45,904 nucleotides of DNA from Acidimicrobiia bacterium (GTDB lineage: Bacteria; Acidobacteriota; Terriglobia; Bryobacterales; Bryobacteraceae), in assembly GCA_016871315.1 (NCBI GenBank), contig VFZE01000047.1:1-45904 (forward strand), written 5' to 3'. Positions 12,553 to 20,149 of this stretch are shown piece after piece (within the stretch, counting starts at the first letter, position 1; the number at the start of each line of letters is the position of its first letter). Under the pieces are notes generated by a model. The model saw only the letters and a program-made list of their open reading frames with translations, ran no database searches and was not told the DNA's origin. A program made the translations under genes and the position numbers.

Positions 12553-14700
12553 TCATCGGTTAAACAGGAACGCATTGCTGTTGAGCAGGGCCCATAAAAG
12601 ATCCTGCGCGCGCTCGCCTCGCGAAGCGCCTTTGCCGATATAGGTCAGCGCCTGATCCAATTCCTGGCTATCCGGCGCGCGGCCGAGCGCGGCGAAGTAG
12701 AGCTCCTCGACAAGTTCACGATCCTTGGCGCCTCGAAGCAGCAAGCGGGCGATGCCCCCATCGGGATCGGCAATCGCGTCGGCGATCGTCGCCCCGTTCA
12801 GTAGATTCAGCGCCTGCACCAGGCTCATGTCACTCCGCCGTTCGCATTCGCAGCTGGTTTGGCGTTCGGGGCGTCCGAAGACGTCGAGGAAACTTCCACG
12901 CAGGATCGACGGATCGGGGATATCCTGAGCGAGGGATCCATCGGGCACTTGCGGGAATTTCGGGCGGCTGCCTGTGGCGATGTGCACGGCGTCGAAAAGT
13001 TGCTCGGCGGACAGCCGGCGGGGAAGGGCATGGGAGAAGTTGGTCTCATCCTCCGCGTTCCAGGAGTTGGCGCGATAACTCAGCTGGTAGGTGCGCGAGT
13101 TCACGATCGTTCGGATCATGTGCCGCAGGTCGTAGTTCTGGGCCAGGAAGTCGGCAGTCAGCGCGTCGAGCAGCGCAGCGTTTGACGGCGGATTGCTGGC
13201 GCGGATGTCATCGACAGGCTCAATGATGCCGCGTCCGAAGAAATAGCTCCACAGCCGGTTGGACATCGATTTTGCAAACAGCGGGTTTTGCTTCGAGGTC
13301 AGCCACTCGGCCAGGCTATCGCGAGGATCGGTTTCCGAGATGCCCACCTTACCTGCTTCGTAGAGGAACTTGGCGGGCATGACGCGGCCATCCTTGGGGT
13401 GCAGGATCTCGGCCTCTTCCCGTTTGTCGTAAAGAACCTGCTCGTCGGAATCCTCGCCGCCCTTCAGCGCCATCGCGCCGAAGAAGGCGCTGAGATTGAA
13501 GTACTGATTCTGCGTCCATTGCTCAAAGGGGTGATCGTGGCATTGCGCGCAAACCATACGCACGCCGAGGAACAGCTGCGTAGTAGTTTCCATGGCGAGC
13601 TTGGGCTCGCCGGTGAAGCGGAAGAAGTTGGCCGGCGGATTCTTGAAAGTGCTGCCGCGCGCGGTAATCAGCTCGCGTACCATCCTGTCGTAGGGCTTGT
13701 TGGTTGCGAGCGACTCCTGAATCCATTCGCGGAAGGCCCAGACGCCCTTGTCGCCGAGCTTGGCGCGGTTGACTTGCAGCAGGTCGCTCCATTTCACCGT
13801 CCAGTGGTTGACGAACTCCTCGCGCGCCATCAGCTTTTCCACGAGCGCCGCGCGCTTCTTTCTGGTATCCGTGCGGTCGGCGAGGAAAGCGCGCACCTCG
13901 GCCGGCGTCGGCGGCAGGCCGATCAAATCGAACGAGACGCGCCGCAAGAACTCGGCATCGCCGGCGAGTTCCGATGGAGGAGTCTTCAGCCGTTGCAGCT
14001 TCGCGTTGACATGCCGGTCAATGTAGTTCCATTCGGGAACCGGCTTCCAGTCGACCGCGTCCTTACGCACGGTGGTGACGTTGATCACCGCCAACTTGCC
14101 TTCATAGCGCACCAGCAGCGGCGCTTCGCCGCGGCGCAATGTCTTGATCACGCCGTCGTCGTTGACGTTCGCGATCTCGGGCAAGTTCGAGCTGTACTGC
14201 GCCTCGCGCGTCACCTCGCGGCGGGAGCCATCGGCGTAATGGGCCACCACTTTCAACGCCTGCGTGGCGCCAACCTCATCGGTGAAGAGTTCGGCAGGCT
14301 CAACGTCCAGCTTCGTCACCATGCCCCCGACCGGGTCACCGTAAGGAGCGCCAGCGCGGATCCAGTTGAGCACGATCTCGTGGTAGCGGCCGCTGGCTTC
14401 AAGGCGCAGTCCGCCGCCGTGGCCCAGTTGATTGGTCGGCTTGAGCAGCAGCAGGCTCTGCGCAGGCTCGGTACGGTTCACGCGACGGCCAGCCACCTCA
14501 TGCACGATGGCACGGTAATCGAATTCCGGATCGTAGCCGCGGAGGGAAAGCTTGAATCCGTTCTTGCCTTTCGCACCGCCGTGGCAAGGCCCCGAGGTGC
14601 AGCCGGCCTTGTTCAGCACAGGCATCACATCCTTGATAAAGGAGATGCTTTCGGCGTGCGCGCCCCAGGTGATCAACAGAACTGCCGCGAGAATCCTCAT
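12553..14700 (-). CDS. DUF1549/DUF1553 protein with cytochrome-like and Ig-like domains
   Basis: A 715-residue exported protein. A signal peptide (1-17) precedes a planctomycete-type cytochrome-like region with a CX4CH motif (Cys34, Cys39, His40; GCTSGPCHGG). Next comes a bacterial Ig-like (BIG2) domain (about 115-205), then DUF1549 (about 225-420; FLRRVSFDLIGLPPTP and CAQCHDHPFEQWTQNQY, the latter a CxxCH motif) and DUF1553 (about 455-700; MSNRLWSYFFGRGIIEPVDDIR). The ATG overlaps the stop of the upstream PPC-domain gene by four bases. Such proteins are thought to be periplasmic heme proteins acting with DUF1501 partners; the reaction is unknown. Confidence 0.9.
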   Translation of the reverse strand: MRILAAVLLITWGAHAESISFIKDVMPVLNKAGCTSGPCHGGAKGKNGFKLSLRGYDPEFDYRAIVHEVAGRRVNRTEPAQSLLLLKPTNQLGHGGGLRLEASGRYHEIVLNWIRAGAPYGDPVGGMVTKLDVEPAELFTDEVGATQALKVVAHYADGSRREVTREAQYSSNLPEIANVNDDGVIKTLRRGEAPLLVRYEGKLAVINVTTVRKDAVDWKPVPEWNYIDRHVNAKLQRLKTPPSELAGDAEFLRRVSFDLIGLPPTPAEVRAFLADRTDTRKKRAALVEKLMAREEFVNHWTVKWSDLLQVNRAKLGDKGVWAFREWIQESLATNKPYDRMVRELITARGSTFKNPPANFFRFTGEPKLAMETTTQLFLGVRMVCAQCHDHPFEQWTQNQYFNLSAFFGAMALKGGEDSDEQVLYDKREEAEILHPKDGRVMPAKFLYEAGKVGISETDPRDSLAEWLTSKQNPLFAKSMSNRLWSYFFGRGIIEPVDDIRASNPPSNAALLDALTADFLAQNYDLRHMIRTIVNSRTYQLSYRANSWNAEDETNFSHALPRRLSAEQLFDAVHIATGSRPKFPQVPDGSLAQDIPDPSILRGSFLDVFGRPERQTSCECERRSDMSLVQALNLLNGATIADAIADPDGGIARLLLRGAKDRELVEELYFAALGRAPDSQELDQALTYIGKGASRGERAQDLLWALLNSNAFLFNR

Positions 14701-17003
14701 TGAGCCGTTACCTTTATTTTAACCGGATAATCCGGAATCTTGTACGTGTCCTTGGCCTTGCTGCCCGTTTCGGGGGCCTCGGAGTTGATGCGGATCTCAT
14801 AAACACCCGGCTCTGCTCCGGCTTTCGCCTCACAGGAAAGCGAGAACCTGGTTTGTTCCGCCGGTACGTCCGCCGGCGCGCAACTGACCGCTTCGGGCAG
14901 ATCCAGCGCCTGAATCTTTACGAGCCCGCCTTCGAATGTCGGTTCACGATAAACAGTGCCTGCGATCTCGATCTTGCCAGGGCTTTTCACCGCGAACTGC
15001 TCCGCGGCCAGCCGCAACTGATAGCCGAGGGCAACCTCGATCGTGACCATCGGAGCGGTCACCGTCTCCGTCTTGCCTTCCATCTCGACGGTGGCATCCA
15101 GGAGCATGTCGAACTTTTCGGCGGGAGTTTCAAAATTCGTGCTGACCAGGAAGGAGCCGGAATCCGGCGTTTTGCCCGGCGGCCCCTGCAAGATACGGAG
15201 GTTCCCGAGCGACGTGGCGATGTTATTGCGCGGCCTGCCGCGCAGTTGCACGCCCTGGGCGCGCTCGACGCGATAGCCGAGGGGGAACTCGACACCTTGC
15301 GCGATCCTCACCAGCGGTATGGGAGAGCTCATGCGCGCCAGGGCCGGCGCGGTCACCGCCGCGGGAAGCTGCATTTCCAGCCATGGCGCCGTCACGGATT
15401 TTTGCCGGAGCCCGGCCACCCCCACCACCATCGCCGGCGTTTCGGCCTTGCGTACGATCTTGCCGTTCCGGGTTAGCGCCGTGCCCACCACTTCAAGCGC
15501 CATTGCTTGTGGCAGCGCGTCGGCGTCGGCCGTGATGGTGATCGTGCTGCGGGTTGCGCTGAACCGCGGATTCGGATCGTCGAACCGCTGCTGCGCCGCC
15601 GCCGTCGCCACGGTGCCGCCGGATTGATGAAGCCCCGGCGGAAGATTCGGAATCGTCAACCGGAGGGCTCCGTCATAACCGCGGCGCTGCACCTGCAAAT
15701 CCACTTTCGCCGTTCCTCCGGCCGGAACGTTGACGTACGGCGTGACGACGTTCACCAGGAAATCGGCCGGTGCGTGCCGGGCGACCAGGCGGTAGCCGTA
15801 ATCGGGTCCCCCGCGCCCCAGCAGGTCTTCGAGTTCGACCGTAACTTCCTTTACGCCCTCCGGGGCTTCAAACGGCAGCACTGGATCGGCGCCGCCCAAA
15901 TCGTCGCGCGAGGCCAGTTTCTTTCCCTCCCCATCCCGCACCGTCAGCAGCGCATCCAGGCGCGAGGTTCCCAGTTTGGAAGCCATCACTTCCAGCACCC
16001 AGTGCTCACCAGGCTTCACCGCAAGCTTATACTTGTCCACCTTCTTCGGCGAGGAGATCCGGCCATTCACGGCCACTTCCGGTTTCAGCTCGGTGGCCGA
16101 CGACTCTTCCAGGTCGCTCAACTCCACAAGCATCGGCAGGCTTTGGGAACCAGGGAGCATGACTTGCGCGTACCGGCGCTCCGAGTTGGTGTTGACTTCT
16201 ACTTCCGCCTGCTGCGGCAGGTTGCCGCCGGAAAGCGTCACCTTCGCGGGCTTGCCGCGCTGCACCGCCAGCGGATACATGGCATCGGCGAACGGATAAC
16301 TGCCCGCCTTCAGCCGGTAGTGATTCACGCGCTGGTTGCTGTACTTGGAATCGTGCACGCGCGCGAAGTAGGCGCCTGCTTTGGCGAAGCTCACCTCCAT
16401 GCGGACATCGACTCCCACGCCCGGCGCATCGTCGTTCTTCGCCACCGTCTTGCCCGCGCTGTCGAGAATTTCCAGCGCCGGGTCAATCGCCGATCCGATC
16501 GACGCCCCCTCCACCTCGAACACGATCTTTTGCCCAGCCTGCGCGGTGAATTTGTAGAAGTCGATATCGGCCTCGGTGAGCGTGCCGTTCATTACACCAG
16601 GTATGCGCAATGCCTGTGCCGCTTCAGTGCCGCCGTTGGATTGCTTGGGCTCCTTCGATTCAATCTCCTCCTGCTCCTCCAGACCGCTGATCGAAAACAG
16701 CACGACGTTGGAGAGCCCATCTTTCGTAGAAACGCGAACCGGGTAGACGCCGACAGGCGCGTCCTTGCGGATCTCCAACAGGAACGGCAGCTCCGTACCG
16801 GGCCGCATCAGGTCCGCCGCCGGCGCAAGGCGCGACACGGCTCCAGGCACCGTGGTGATCATCTGCGCTCCGCTCTCCAGGCCCGAACCGGTCAGCAGCA
16901 GTTTGATAGTCTGGCCCGGCATGGCGCCGCGGGGCGCCAGGTCGCGGATCACCGGCTCGGCCAGCAATCCGCCCGCGAAGATCAACATTACCGCGATTCG
17001 CAT
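14697..17003 (-). CDS. Exported pre-peptidase C-terminal (PPC) domain protein
   Basis: A 768-residue secreted beta-rich protein. Signal peptide 1-15 (MRIAVMLIFAGGLLA). An IPT/Ig-like domain (about 17-107; PRGAMPGQTIKLLLTGSGL) is followed by a PPC-type domain (about 120-240; GTLTEADIDFYKFTAQAGQKIVFEV, then YFARVHDSKYSNQRVNHYRL) and further PPC/Ig-like modules to the end. No catalytic motif is visible, so it probably binds or presents a polymer. It is translationally coupled to the downstream DUF1549 gene (ATGA) and starts four bases after the stop of the WD40 gene, so the four proteins are presumably made together. Confidence 0.85.
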   Translation of the reverse strand: MRIAVMLIFAGGLLAEPVIRDLAPRGAMPGQTIKLLLTGSGLESGAQMITTVPGAVSRLAPAADLMRPGTELPFLLEIRKDAPVGVYPVRVSTKDGLSNVVLFSISGLEEQEEIESKEPKQSNGGTEAAQALRIPGVMNGTLTEADIDFYKFTAQAGQKIVFEVEGASIGSAIDPALEILDSAGKTVAKNDDAPGVGVDVRMEVSFAKAGAYFARVHDSKYSNQRVNHYRLKAGSYPFADAMYPLAVQRGKPAKVTLSGGNLPQQAEVEVNTNSERRYAQVMLPGSQSLPMLVELSDLEESSATELKPEVAVNGRISSPKKVDKYKLAVKPGEHWVLEVMASKLGTSRLDALLTVRDGEGKKLASRDDLGGADPVLPFEAPEGVKEVTVELEDLLGRGGPDYGYRLVARHAPADFLVNVVTPYVNVPAGGTAKVDLQVQRRGYDGALRLTIPNLPPGLHQSGGTVATAAAQQRFDDPNPRFSATRSTITITADADALPQAMALEVVGTALTRNGKIVRKAETPAMVVGVAGLRQKSVTAPWLEMQLPAAVTAPALARMSSPIPLVRIAQGVEFPLGYRVERAQGVQLRGRPRNNIATSLGNLRILQGPPGKTPDSGSFLVSTNFETPAEKFDMLLDATVEMEGKTETVTAPMVTIEVALGYQLRLAAEQFAVKSPGKIEIAGTVYREPTFEGGLVKIQALDLPEAVSCAPADVPAEQTRFSLSCEAKAGAEPGVYEIRINSEAPETGSKAKDTYKIPDYPVKIKVTAQ

Positions 17004-17007
17004 AGGT

Positions 17008-18348
17008 TCAATCCCTCTTGGCCGCCGTTATTGGTGCAGCCACAAATGCCCTTGCCAGCTTGCCGCCCGCTTCATAGAGCCGCATCGTTCCGTCATAACC
17101 GCCCACGGCGAGCAGCGTGCCGTCGGGAGAAAACTCTACTGCATAGGCGCCGCCTTCATGTCCGGTGCAGGACGCCTTCAAGTCACCGGTTTCGGCGTCA
17201 TAGATGCGCACCGGTCCGATTTCGCCCGCCACCGCCACGCGTGTGCCGTCAGGGGAAACAGCCATTGCCAGAATCGGCCCGTCCTGTTTTTCAAACTTTC
17301 GGATCAGGGTGGAATCATCGGCGATGCGCATCGCGCGCGGCCGGTCCATCCGGTACAGGTAGGGAATGCGTTCCGCGCCTCCGATGGCGATCCAGTCGCG
17401 CTTGGGATGACGGGCCACGGCGGTGAGAGAATCGCGCAGCAGGTTGACGTTTTCGATGAAGCGTCCCGTGGACACTTCACTGACCTTCGCCGCGCGGTCG
17501 CGGCCGACCGAAACCAACCGCTTGCCGTCGACGCCCCAAACGGTGCCCATCACCCAATCCTCGTGATGATCCATCCTGCGAATCTCCTTGCCCGTGGCCA
17601 CGTCGAAAATACGAATCGATTTGTCAGGCGAGCCGCAGGCCAGCAGCTTCCCGTCCGGAGACAGAGCGCCGCCGAACAGCGTATCGTTACCCACCACAAC
17701 GGAATGCTTCTGCCGCCGGGCTTCCACATCCCAGATCTGCACTTCGCCGAACCGTGCCGGATCGCCTCCCACTGCCACCAGTGTCTTGCCGTCCGGCGTG
17801 AAGCTAAGACTGTGGAGGCGCTTGCTCAGCCCCGGCAGCCGCGCCTGCAAGTTGCCTTCGGCGTCGACCAGCAGGATCTCGCGGTAACCGGCCACCGCCA
17901 TGCTCTTGCCGTTAGGCGCGAATGTGAACGTGGTCACTGGCGGCGCTGTTGCGTACGCCACCGGTTTCAATTCCGCCGCTGTTTCCACCGCCGCGCCGCC
18001 GTCGTTGCGCGCCCCTTCGCGGATCCAGCGGCGGAACAGTTCGATCTCCTCTTCGGCCAGCGGTTTTCCGCCGAACGGCATCCGCGGCTCGATCTTGCCG
18101 GCCACGTATTGGATCACCAGGCTCTCGTCCGGCTTGCCGGGCAGGAATCCGGCGCCCTTGCGGCCGCCCTTTTGAAACTCCGCGTGGCTGGTCAGCAGCA
18201 GGTCGGCTTGCTTGGATTGCGGCTGGTGACAGCCGATGCAGTGGCGCCGCAGCAGCGGCTGTATCTGACGCGCGTAGCTGACCGGCTCTTGCGCCGCCAA
18301 TCCGGAAATGAGGCACACGAAGCCGATGCCCAGACGAAAAGGACTCAT
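17008..18348 (-). CDS. Cytochrome c-like/WD40-repeat exported protein
   Basis: A 446-residue protein and first gene of the minus-strand operon. I choose ATG 18348 because it opens a clean signal peptide (MSPFRLGIGFVCLISGLAAQ); longer readings extend into the divergent gene. After the signal lies a planctomycete-type cytochrome c-like domain with CxxCH (Cys37, Cys40, His41; HCIGCHQPQ) and the MPFGGKPL segment supplying a possible Met ligand. From about 140 to 440 there are WD40-like repeats (SFTPDGKTLVAVGG, ALSPDGKLLACGSPDKSIRIFD, EFSPDGTLLAVGGYDGTMRLYE) forming a propeller. No ribosome binding site is evident, so the message may be leaderless. Confidence 0.88.
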   Translation of the reverse strand: MSPFRLGIGFVCLISGLAAQEPVSYARQIQPLLRRHCIGCHQPQSKQADLLLTSHAEFQKGGRKGAGFLPGKPDESLVIQYVAGKIEPRMPFGGKPLAEEEIELFRRWIREGARNDGGAAVETAAELKPVAYATAPPVTTFTFAPNGKSMAVAGYREILLVDAEGNLQARLPGLSKRLHSLSFTPDGKTLVAVGGDPARFGEVQIWDVEARRQKHSVVVGNDTLFGGALSPDGKLLACGSPDKSIRIFDVATGKEIRRMDHHEDWVMGTVWGVDGKRLVSVGRDRAAKVSEVSTGRFIENVNLLRDSLTAVARHPKRDWIAIGGAERIPYLYRMDRPRAMRIADDSTLIRKFEKQDGPILAMAVSPDGTRVAVAGEIGPVRIYDAETGDLKASCTGHEGGAYAVEFSPDGTLLAVGGYDGTMRLYEAGGKLARAFVAAPITAAKRD

Positions 18349-18395
18349 TGTTGAACAATATATCATCCACGGCCCTGACGTATTACACTGAATGG
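18349..18395. promoter_or_regulatory. Divergent promoter region, WD40 operon / selenoprotein operon
   Basis: Only 47 bases separate the divergent start codons at 18348 (minus) and 18396 (plus). The segment is AT-richer than its surroundings (AACAATATATCATCC) and contains -10-like TATTAC at 18381-18386 for the plus direction and an ATATAT core (18358-18363) usable toward the minus strand. Neither gene has a Shine-Dalgarno sequence, so both transcripts may start at or very near the initiation codon. Exact start sites cannot be fixed from sequence. Confidence 0.35.
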
Positions 18396-19625
18396 ATGCG
18401 TTGGTCTGTTCTCGCTTTGTCGCTTTCACTGTTTCCCGCCGCCGCCGAAGATGACGGTTTGAGGTGGCTCTCCAACTACAAAGAGGCCCTTGCCGAGGCC
18501 CGCCAAACCAACAAGCCCATCTTCTTGGAATACCGCTGCGAGCCTTGAACGGCCGGACGTATTTTTGACGCACAGGTTGTGCTGTCACCGAAATCCTCGC
18601 CCCGCGGAAAGCTGTTGACCCAGTACGTGCTGGCTCGTATCACGCGCATGGACGATGTCGACATCGGCCTGTTTGAATATGACCGCAACAACACGCTCTA
18701 CTTCTTTTTCCTGAACGCCGACGAGCAGGTTTATATGCGCTACGGCGGCCGGGACGCCACCTCGCCCGACGCTTACTTGAATTTGAGCAGTCTGGAGGTG
18801 GCGCTGGCGAAGGGCCTCGAGCTGCACCAGCGCTACCAGCGCGGTGAAATTCCCAAAGCGGCGCGTCCGCAGCCGGTGTTCCCGCGGCAGATTCCGCTGC
18901 TGGTGGAGCGCACATTCGCGCGAAACAACTGCGTGGAGTGCCACCTGATTGGTGATTTCCAGAACATCCACCGCGAGCTGGACGGTACGCTGGATAAGCC
19001 GGTGCACGTGTACCGCTCGCCGGACATCAAGACGCTCGGCATTCATCTCGACGTGCCGAAAGGGATTGTCGTGAAGGAGGCCATTGGCCCAGCGCAGGCC
19101 GCGGGCATGAGCGCCGAGGATCTCATCACGCACTGGAACCGTGTGCCCGTATACACCTTCGGCGATTTGCAACAGCAGCACGACAAGCTTGACCGCAAGG
19201 CCGCGAGTGTCGTGGTTACGGTGGAACGCGCTGGTCAGGCAAGGGATCTGACCATCGCTCTTCCCATCCGCTGGTGGATTACCGATATCCGCTGGCGGCA
19301 ATCCTCGGTGGACCCGCGCGTCTATTTCGATTCACGCCCGCTCAGCGCCGAGGAGAAACGCAAGCTCAACCTCGCACCCGGCGGCTTTGCCGGAGAAGTT
19401 ACCCACGTCGATATGTTCGCGCAAGTGGTCAAGAGCCACGAGCTGAAGACGGGCGACATTGTCTACGCCGTTGACAATGCCGAGACCGATGAGATCGCCG
19501 ACTCGCCGGAGTTGTACATCAAGCTACGCCGCAAGTCCGGCGACTCTGTTACGCTGCATGTGATCCGTGACGGCAACCGCATGCAGATGCCGCTTAAAAC
19601 TTTCCAAATGAGTTTCCGCAAATGA
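18396..19625 (+). CDS. Thioredoxin-like/CxxCH/PDZ selenoprotein (Sec at residue 51)
   Basis: Read through the in-frame TGA at 18546-18548, this is a 409-residue exported protein. Signal peptide about 1-17 (ending FPAAAE). A thioredoxin-like segment follows (NKPIFLEYRCEP-U-TAGRIFDAQVV), where U51 takes the place of the second Cys of CxxC, giving C48-E-P-U51. The frame continues without a break, through a CxxCH heme-type motif (Cys179, Cys182, His183; NNCVECH) and two PDZ-like regions (about 208-285 and 320-400; GIVVKEAIGPAQAAGMSAEDLI, ELKTGDIVYAVDNAE). A stem-loop with a GGU loop lies just downstream of the TGA. Stopping at the TGA would leave a 50-residue fragment; starting after it would lose the signal peptide and the active site. 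I recall a thioredoxin/PDZ selenoprotein family from database names, unchecked here. The gene overlaps the DsbD-alpha-like gene by ATGA. Confidence 0.85.
18566..18587 (+). promoter_or_regulatory. Putative bacterial SECIS element
   Basis: Downstream of the TGA, TGACGCACA (18566-18574) pairs with TGTGC (18578-18582) and, after one bulged T, GTCA (18584-18587). The apical loop is GGT (18575-18577). The loop G is 27 bases after the TGA, within the 16-37 base range I recall for bacterial SECIS searches, and the GGU at the tip matches the SelB-contacting bases of E. coli fdhF. The hairpin is inside the coding frame, as bacterial SECIS elements are. Confidence 0.75.
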
Positions 19626-20149
19626 TACTGTTTTTCCTCGCCGCTTCTCTTGCCATGGCCCAGGCTCCCTCCTGGACCGAGCCGATCATCGTCCGCCACG
19701 ACACCACGCCCTGCATCTCCTACCGCGCGCGGCTGCAAGGCCAGACCCTCGTCTTGCATGCAAAGATCGAGCCTGGCTGGCACACGTTCTCGATGGACAA
19801 CAAGCTCCGCGCCGAGGAAAAACTCGCGGGCAAGCAGTCGCTCGGCATCGATGCGCCGACGGAAATCCGGCTATCCGGCGCGCTGGAGACCACCGGCGGC
19901 TGGCGTCAAACCGAACCGAAGGATTTTTCCAAACCGGACCTGCGGTGGTACAGCTGGGGTTTTGAGAATGAGGCTCTGTTTGCTGCGCCGGTTCGAGTCA
20001 GCGGGGCCGGCCCCGCTTCCATCCGCGTCCGCGGCCAAGCCTGTACGGAAACCATCTGCAAGCAGATTGACGTTACGATTTCGGTGCCGCTGAATGCAGG
20101 CGCCGCCGGGCCGGAAGTCGACCTCCAATCATTGGTGGCCGTCCGCTAG
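19622..20149 (+). CDS. DsbD alpha-domain-like exported protein
   Basis: A 175-residue protein with a signal peptide (MILFFLAASLAMAQA) and one immunoglobulin-like domain resembling the N-terminal domain of the thiol:disulfide interchange protein DsbD. Family features are the central LHAKIEPGWHTFSM strand pair, the WYSWGFENEALFAAPV segment and a paired cysteine motif near the end (Cys141 and Cys146; GQACTETICKQIDV) that would form the reactive disulfide. No membrane or C-terminal thioredoxin domain is present, so it must receive electrons from another protein. Its ATG overlaps the stop of the selenoprotein gene (19622-19625), strongly suggesting that the two work together. Confidence 0.82.
   Translation: MILFFLAASLAMAQAPSWTEPIIVRHDTTPCISYRARLQGQTLVLHAKIEPGWHTFSMDNKLRAEEKLAGKQSLGIDAPTEIRLSGALETTGGWRQTEPKDFSKPDLRWYSWGFENEALFAAPVRVSGAGPASIRVRGQACTETICKQIDVTISVPLNAGAAGPEVDLQSLVAVR

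Follow-up and report, generated by a model that had tools for sequence, protein, structure and literature searches.

The window, as we call the whole stretch of DNA analysed, comprises 45,904 nucleotides of contig VFZE01000047.1. Its organism is placed by GTDB in the order Bryobacterales of the phylum Acidobacteriota. On the plus strand a frame runs from the ATG at 18396 to the TGA that ends at 19625, and it is interrupted once, by a TGA at 18546-18548, around which C48-E-P-U51 is encoded. Frame, codon and motif are as they were given in an earlier note on this DNA. Mechanical ORF calling splits the frame in two, one ORF ending at TGA 18548 and the other starting at GTG 18579. The features of the locus are listed below.

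18396..19625, +, Trx7/PDZ selenoprotein of 409 residues with the UGA read through (NF041199, 430.4 bits; terminal TGA at 19623-19625)
18462..18641, +, Thioredoxin_7 domain, residues 23-82 by Pfam (26.6 bits, cut-off 27; fold matches to about residue 150)
18537..18539, +, Cys48, likely resolving residue (Cys in 45/45 loci; three residues before the predicted Sec)
18546..18548, +, UGA codon almost certainly read as selenocysteine U51 (TGA in 45/45 distinct loci)
18566..18587, +, bSECIS-like hairpin with GGU loop at 18575-18577 (loop begins 26 nt past the UGA)
18825..18827, +, His144, candidate second heme ligand (invariant, 45/45)
18930..18944, +, C179-V-E-C-H183, heme-c type motif, heme predicted (each of the five residues 45/45)
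19086..19226, +, first PDZ domain (PF17820, 22.8 bits, under the cut-off of 27; profile matches to PDZ chains of the PDB)
19434..19595, +, second PDZ domain (PF13180, 47 bits, cut-off 27; DegQ Z 10.8, HtrA Z 10.6)
19622..20149, +, DsbD-alpha-like partner, overlapping the selenoprotein gene in ATGA (DsbD_N, 30 bits, cut-off 25)

Upstream, two gene stretches lie on the minus strand (12553-17003 and 17008 to about 18350). We take them to resemble large CxxCH and WD40-repeat proteins, which presumably often occur together in the phylum.

The read-through product matched NCBIfam NF041199, 'Trx7/PDZ domain-containing (seleno)protein', over residues 23-401 (cut-off 300), and this model was over its cut-off in none of 14 named control genomes. 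The earlier view that the active site would escape standard annotation was too strong in general, as NF041199 covers the read-through protein. A 2026 review (PMC13188914) tabulates the family as Trx7/PDZ domain-containing protein with CxxU (MCX6587993.1), and at the level of this table entry the full-length architecture of the window protein is alike, with no difference in kind. The entry in PMC9312934 of a PDZ domain-containing protein with Thioredoxin_7 and CxxU (MBM3766709.1) probably belongs to NF041199. A passage of a 2021 study of ocean metagenomes (PMC9402790) mentions a 'MucD' protein with CxxC/U and a fused PDZ domain, which may be of the same family as the window protein. The window gene is a member of an already listed, predicted family and is not new; novelty is low because of this listing. 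The rows and passages of PMC13188914 and PMC9312934 that concern the family hold no mechanism, partner gene or residue-level placement of Sec. Neither 'PDZ' nor 'Trx7' occurs in the main text of the deep-Sep paper (PMC12013277), and the open-licence PMC literature yielded no paper on the function of the NF041199 family.

Conservation of the in-frame TGA

Relatives were collected in several searches. The first, in 61 genomes, gave matches in 25, and 19 of these (that of the window included) span most of the protein with one TGA each. A scan of genome contigs for close relatives, which reached beyond the phylum, gave five loci, all with TGA. In all 24 loci of the first reading (one contig appears twice) TGA was found at the Sec codon. 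Addition of 30 loci from the order and two from the phylum brought the number to 56, and 11 of these were set aside, nine as duplicates and two for their short frames. The 45 distinct full-length loci that remained, that of the window among them, invariably had TGA as the internal codon. The two from the phylum are relatives above 250 bits from a draw of 396 of its genomes, and both have TGA.

Within the order, NF041199 was over its cut-off in 63 of 257 genomes and the internal TGA was present in 63/63, one of these members having a TAG in addition. Among the 63 no Cys form was encountered; the order matches under the cut-off, among the matches listed, comprised the PDZ part only. Beyond the phylum the scope for Cys forms was the single contig scan (five loci), plasmids and the 14 control genomes, and the plasmids searched gave no match. 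The two loci from the draw of the phylum, both outside the order (L056 in G369, L057 in G265), have the identical 18-base hairpin core and damaged frames: L056 spans the full length and carries an additional TAG, and L057 is partial with a broken frame, its match ending at residue 234.

These comparisons bear on how the TGA is to be read. Both ORFs of the mechanical split exist, so that the locus could be taken for two separate genes, a short one up to TGA 18548 and another from GTG 18579. However, the Thioredoxin_7 match of Pfam crosses the TGA, the frame is kept in all 45 loci with invariant residues on either side of the codon, and the internal TGA recurs in every order member over the cut-off. 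Homologues that end or begin at this point had been named in the earlier note as evidence against selenocysteine, and the relatives do neither. Two genes are therefore scarcely credible. A single TGA within an open frame could also mean that the lineage has reassigned the codon to an ordinary amino acid, or that it is a sequencing or assembly error for TGC or TGT. Against the former, TGA terminates the same gene in 38 of the 45 loci (TAG in six, TAA in one) and for this reason remains a stop codon. Against the latter, the identical TGA is shared by 45 distinct loci and is hence very unlikely to be a local sequencing error. Reassignment or error has next to no chance of being right, and this reading, like that of two genes, is contradicted by the comparative data. 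The UGA at 18546-18548 is almost certainly read as selenocysteine. This insertion, which had been proposed before, we infer from the 45 conserved TGA codons, the constraint on the hairpin and the selenocysteine machinery.

The hairpin and the selenocysteine machinery

The hairpin with a GGU loop that had been noticed at 18566-18587 is present and its pairing was confirmed. TGAC/GTCA and GCACA/TGTGC enclose the GGU, giving a stem of 5 bp, a bulge and 4 bp, in which one T is bulged on the 3' side. The bSECIS model, as set out in a passage of PMC13188914, has a loop of 3-9 nt, a stem of 4-16 bp, a G at the first or second loop position, a UGA-to-loop spacing of 16-37 nt and a minimum free energy (MFE) of at most -7.5 kcal/mol. 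The window hairpin lies within the limits for loop, stem, loop G and spacing, and the spacing of 26 nt is identical in 47/47 loci (gap-free alignment). The MFE of the bare 24-nt hairpin was -7.1 kcal/mol, slightly short of -7.5, and became -11.1 kcal/mol with the best flank of many windows tried. By this best-window measure -7.5 was reached in 38 of 47 loci, and nine missed it in every window; loci with a GGTG variant account for six of these. The 63-nt fold was unremarkable (z -0.84; 37 of 200 shuffles as stable). Rfam, searched at E up to 5 over 18300-19000, returned no selenocysteine element; its sole match was a weak CRISPR repeat below the gathering score.

Covariation was absent from the stem in the 47-locus alignment because the stem pairs hardly vary, and synonymous constraint was examined in its place. 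A codon column was regarded as conserved when the same residue was present in at least 90% of the 45 loci, which gave 130 columns. The least synonymous variation among them was found at codons 58, 59, 60, 62 and 63, all within the hairpin. Ala59 is GCA in 45/45 loci, while GCA makes up 11% of the Ala codons in these genes. Third-position changes relative to the window's gene amounted to 3.4% of codons in the hairpin versus 48-59% elsewhere. In this test codons were ranked against others of the same genes only, and the kinship of the sequences was uncorrected. The strongest evidence for the putative insertion signal is this codon-level constraint on the hairpin.

The window's own genome is 98.3% complete. 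A search of it for selA, selB, selC and selD had been advised, and all four were over cut-off: selA with 485 bits, selB with 382 bits and selD with 353 bits (also over cut-off in one, two and two of the 14 control genomes, respectively), and a selC candidate with 69.5 bits by the tRNA-Sec model, which ARAGORN also called tRNA-Sec with anticodon tca. The tRNA-Sec model was over its cut-off in 5/14 controls as well, and a further site of the window's genome just exceeded it (48.4 bits). The selD gene (C12:114032-114955, L045) contains one internal TGA of its own, so that SelD of this genome is probably a second selenoprotein.

Among the matches listed, selA was over cut-off in 59 of the 63 genomes positive for the family and in 147 of the 194 others (Fisher p 0.0017, kinship uncorrected). 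The positives lacking selA, a set drawn from E-values, are G543, G581, G636 and G646, with completeness 83, 74, 73 and 91. This co-occurrence is weak evidence. In a sister family (f3), 14 genomes are positive for the gene, and in 12 of these, among the matches listed, selA lies within 1 kb of it on the same strand. Three f3 regions were opened (L115, L116 and L117, in G040, G047 and G045), and in each the row is selA, selenoprotein, DsbD-alpha-like gene. In two of the three one small gene, which presumably resembles YjbQ, stands between selA and the selenoprotein.

Position of the predicted selenocysteine and the remaining domains

In the structure comparisons the thioredoxin part matched 3f9u, the C-domain of a cytochrome c biogenesis-related protein, with Z 13.2, and cDsbD (2fwf) with Z 10.2. 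Across this part 15 remote matches could be aligned. The residue opposite U51 is Cys in 15/15, and that opposite residue 48 is Gly in 13 and Ala in two. The family profile (first 136 columns) was compared with nine proteins, namely eight of the 15 remote matches and the window genome's own DsbD; in 9/9 the first Cys of CxxC fell on U51 and the second on residue 54, which is Gly in 45/45 loci. By these alignments the predicted Sec occupies the attacking (first Cys) position of a DsbD-gamma-like domain that no longer has its usual resolving Cys, and C-x-x-U-x-x-G, in which Sec is the putative attacking residue, describes the motif better. The earlier note was right to place Sec at the CxxC site of a thioredoxin domain, but had given it the position of the second Cys. 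The homologues with Cys at position 51 whose existence it had asked about are found among the remote relatives, but not among the 63 family members of the order.

As Cys48 is conserved in all 45 loci, three residues ahead of the Sec codon, it is the likely resolving partner of U51. The model of the selenoprotein has a pLDDT of 91.6 overall and of 79 for the ten-residue block holding the active-site loop, and because of the latter value the C48-U51 pairing is something that we infer.

Beyond the thioredoxin fold, C179, C182, H183 and H144 are each invariant in the 45 loci, and H144 and H183 sit in two predicted helices of the model. CVECH together with His144 would fit a heme c ligated by two His, although the presence of heme at CxxCH is a somewhat less than even bet. 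Neither a cytochrome c family nor a serine protease domain was matched by Pfam in the selenoprotein. The protein is probably secreted to the periplasm.

The PDZ domains are shared with HtrA, DegP, DegQ and MucD, whose protease domain is absent from the Pfam matches of the selenoprotein. The NCBIfam degP model gave 40.6 bits where 416.2 are called for, with its best stretch at residues 218-398. A PDZ domain near a CxxCH, the magnetochrome layout, is also found in the magnetosome proteins MamP and MamE. MamP gave a structure match of Z 10.2, and relative to it the thioredoxin domain and the predicted Sec are extra; the curated cut-offs were far from reached (MamP 31.8 of 300, MamE 16.3 of 800).

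The partner gene and a possible electron relay

The gene that follows the selenoprotein gene was searched for across the loci with a pattern restricted to ORFs 140-240 long that contain C-x4-C. Such an ORF, of 167-217 residues, comes next in 39 of the 45 loci and has the four-base overlap in 38 of them. The C-x4-C pair is formed by C141 and C146 in the window's copy and is invariant in 30 aligned copies. By the same pattern no partner ORF was found in 6/45 loci. In five of these six (L088, L109, L110, L111 and L113) another ORF is next, which we take to resemble phytanoyl-CoA dioxygenase.

Two other copies were just under the DsbD_N cut-off (24.4 and 22.7 bits), so that two of the three copies scanned fall below it. 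The model of the partner (pLDDT 91.6) matched the N-domain of ScsB with Z 13.4 (rmsd 2.8 over 140) and nDsbD with Z 10.7 (rmsd 2.4 over 108), the next, unrelated fold having Z 7.8. Its sequence profile scores DsbD-alpha weakly (7.7 bits for the window genome's own DsbD) and had no sequence match in the PDB at E up to 1. The assignment thus rests on Pfam and the model.

The three remote relatives scanned all have DsbD_N, DsbD_TM and Thioredoxin_7 in a single chain, and DsbD_TM is present in the window genome's own DsbD as well. This implies that the selenoprotein gene and its neighbour are the counterparts of the gamma end and the alpha end, respectively, of a single known protein. With DsbD and ScsB the selenoprotein shares the gamma-like Thioredoxin_7 domain, whereas the alpha-like domain, also shared, is encoded here in the next gene. 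DsbD carries alpha, transmembrane part and gamma in one chain; here there are two separate proteins, in neither of which Pfam matched DsbD_TM. In place of the CxxC of DsbD gamma the selenoprotein has Sec first and Gly54 second, with C48 in addition, and to the DsbD plan it adds two PDZ domains and the CxxCH.

These features suggest that the selenoprotein works together with the DsbD-alpha-like partner, as we consider probable, and that together they quite likely form the gamma/alpha pair of a periplasmic electron relay of the DsbD type, soluble and based on selenium. SelB on the GGU hairpin would deliver Sec-tRNA to the UGA at 18546-18548, and translation would continue as far as TGA 19623. 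The protein so made would consist of a DsbD-gamma-like thioredoxin domain, with Sec attacking and C48 as its partner, a linker with CxxCH and two PDZ domains. In E. coli the exchange of electrons between cDsbD and nDsbD is established. The selenol may trade electrons with the alpha-like partner in a similar way, and the pair would reduce periplasmic disulfides or other oxidised substrates held by the PDZ domains.

The PDZ domains could also point to a redox-active periplasmic chaperone, in which they would, as in HtrA-type proteins, catch damaged proteins whose disulfides or sulfenic acids are repaired by the selenol, with the alpha-like protein as reductant or incidental. Their likeness to DegP, DegQ and HtrA speaks for this, as does the 'MucD' CxxC/U-PDZ protein in the passage of PMC9402790, possibly of the same family. 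On the other hand, a protease domain is absent among the Pfam matches, and the DsbD-alpha-like neighbour in 39/45 loci suggests an electron relay. A chaperone, which in part overlaps with the relay, is a tentative proposal that we hold to be about one step above unlikely. Somewhat better placed, if still short of even, is the possibility that CVECH binds heme c and that the selenol exchanges electrons with a cytochrome chain, possibly in the oxidising direction. The invariance of the two Cys and two His residues and the setting of the two His in predicted helices are in its favour; that Pfam matched no cytochrome domain and that CxxCH may alternatively be a disulfide or metal site argue against it. 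Such a heme is compatible with the partnership of the two proteins. The electron relay of selenoprotein and partner remains the reading that we prefer. In its most far-reaching form, which we regard as unlikely, it would be a soluble rebuilt DsbD: a Sec-containing gamma-like protein with its own heme c and two PDZ arms, and a separate alpha-like protein. A heme-coupled selenol, and not a membrane thiol channel, would be the point at which electrons enter or leave the thiol network of the periplasm. Sec would have become the attacking residue, and in place of the lost resolving Cys a new one would have arisen on the opposite side.

Since annotation easily cuts selenoprotein genes in two, the present case, with machinery, a constrained hairpin and 45 loci, provides a clean reference. 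To the family, as the published tables list it, are added the placement of the predicted Sec as attacking residue in a DsbD-gamma-like fold, the DsbD-alpha-like partner gene, the adjacency of selA in one sister family and the absence of a Cys form among 63 members of the order. Together these additions make the function of the family testable with two purified proteins.
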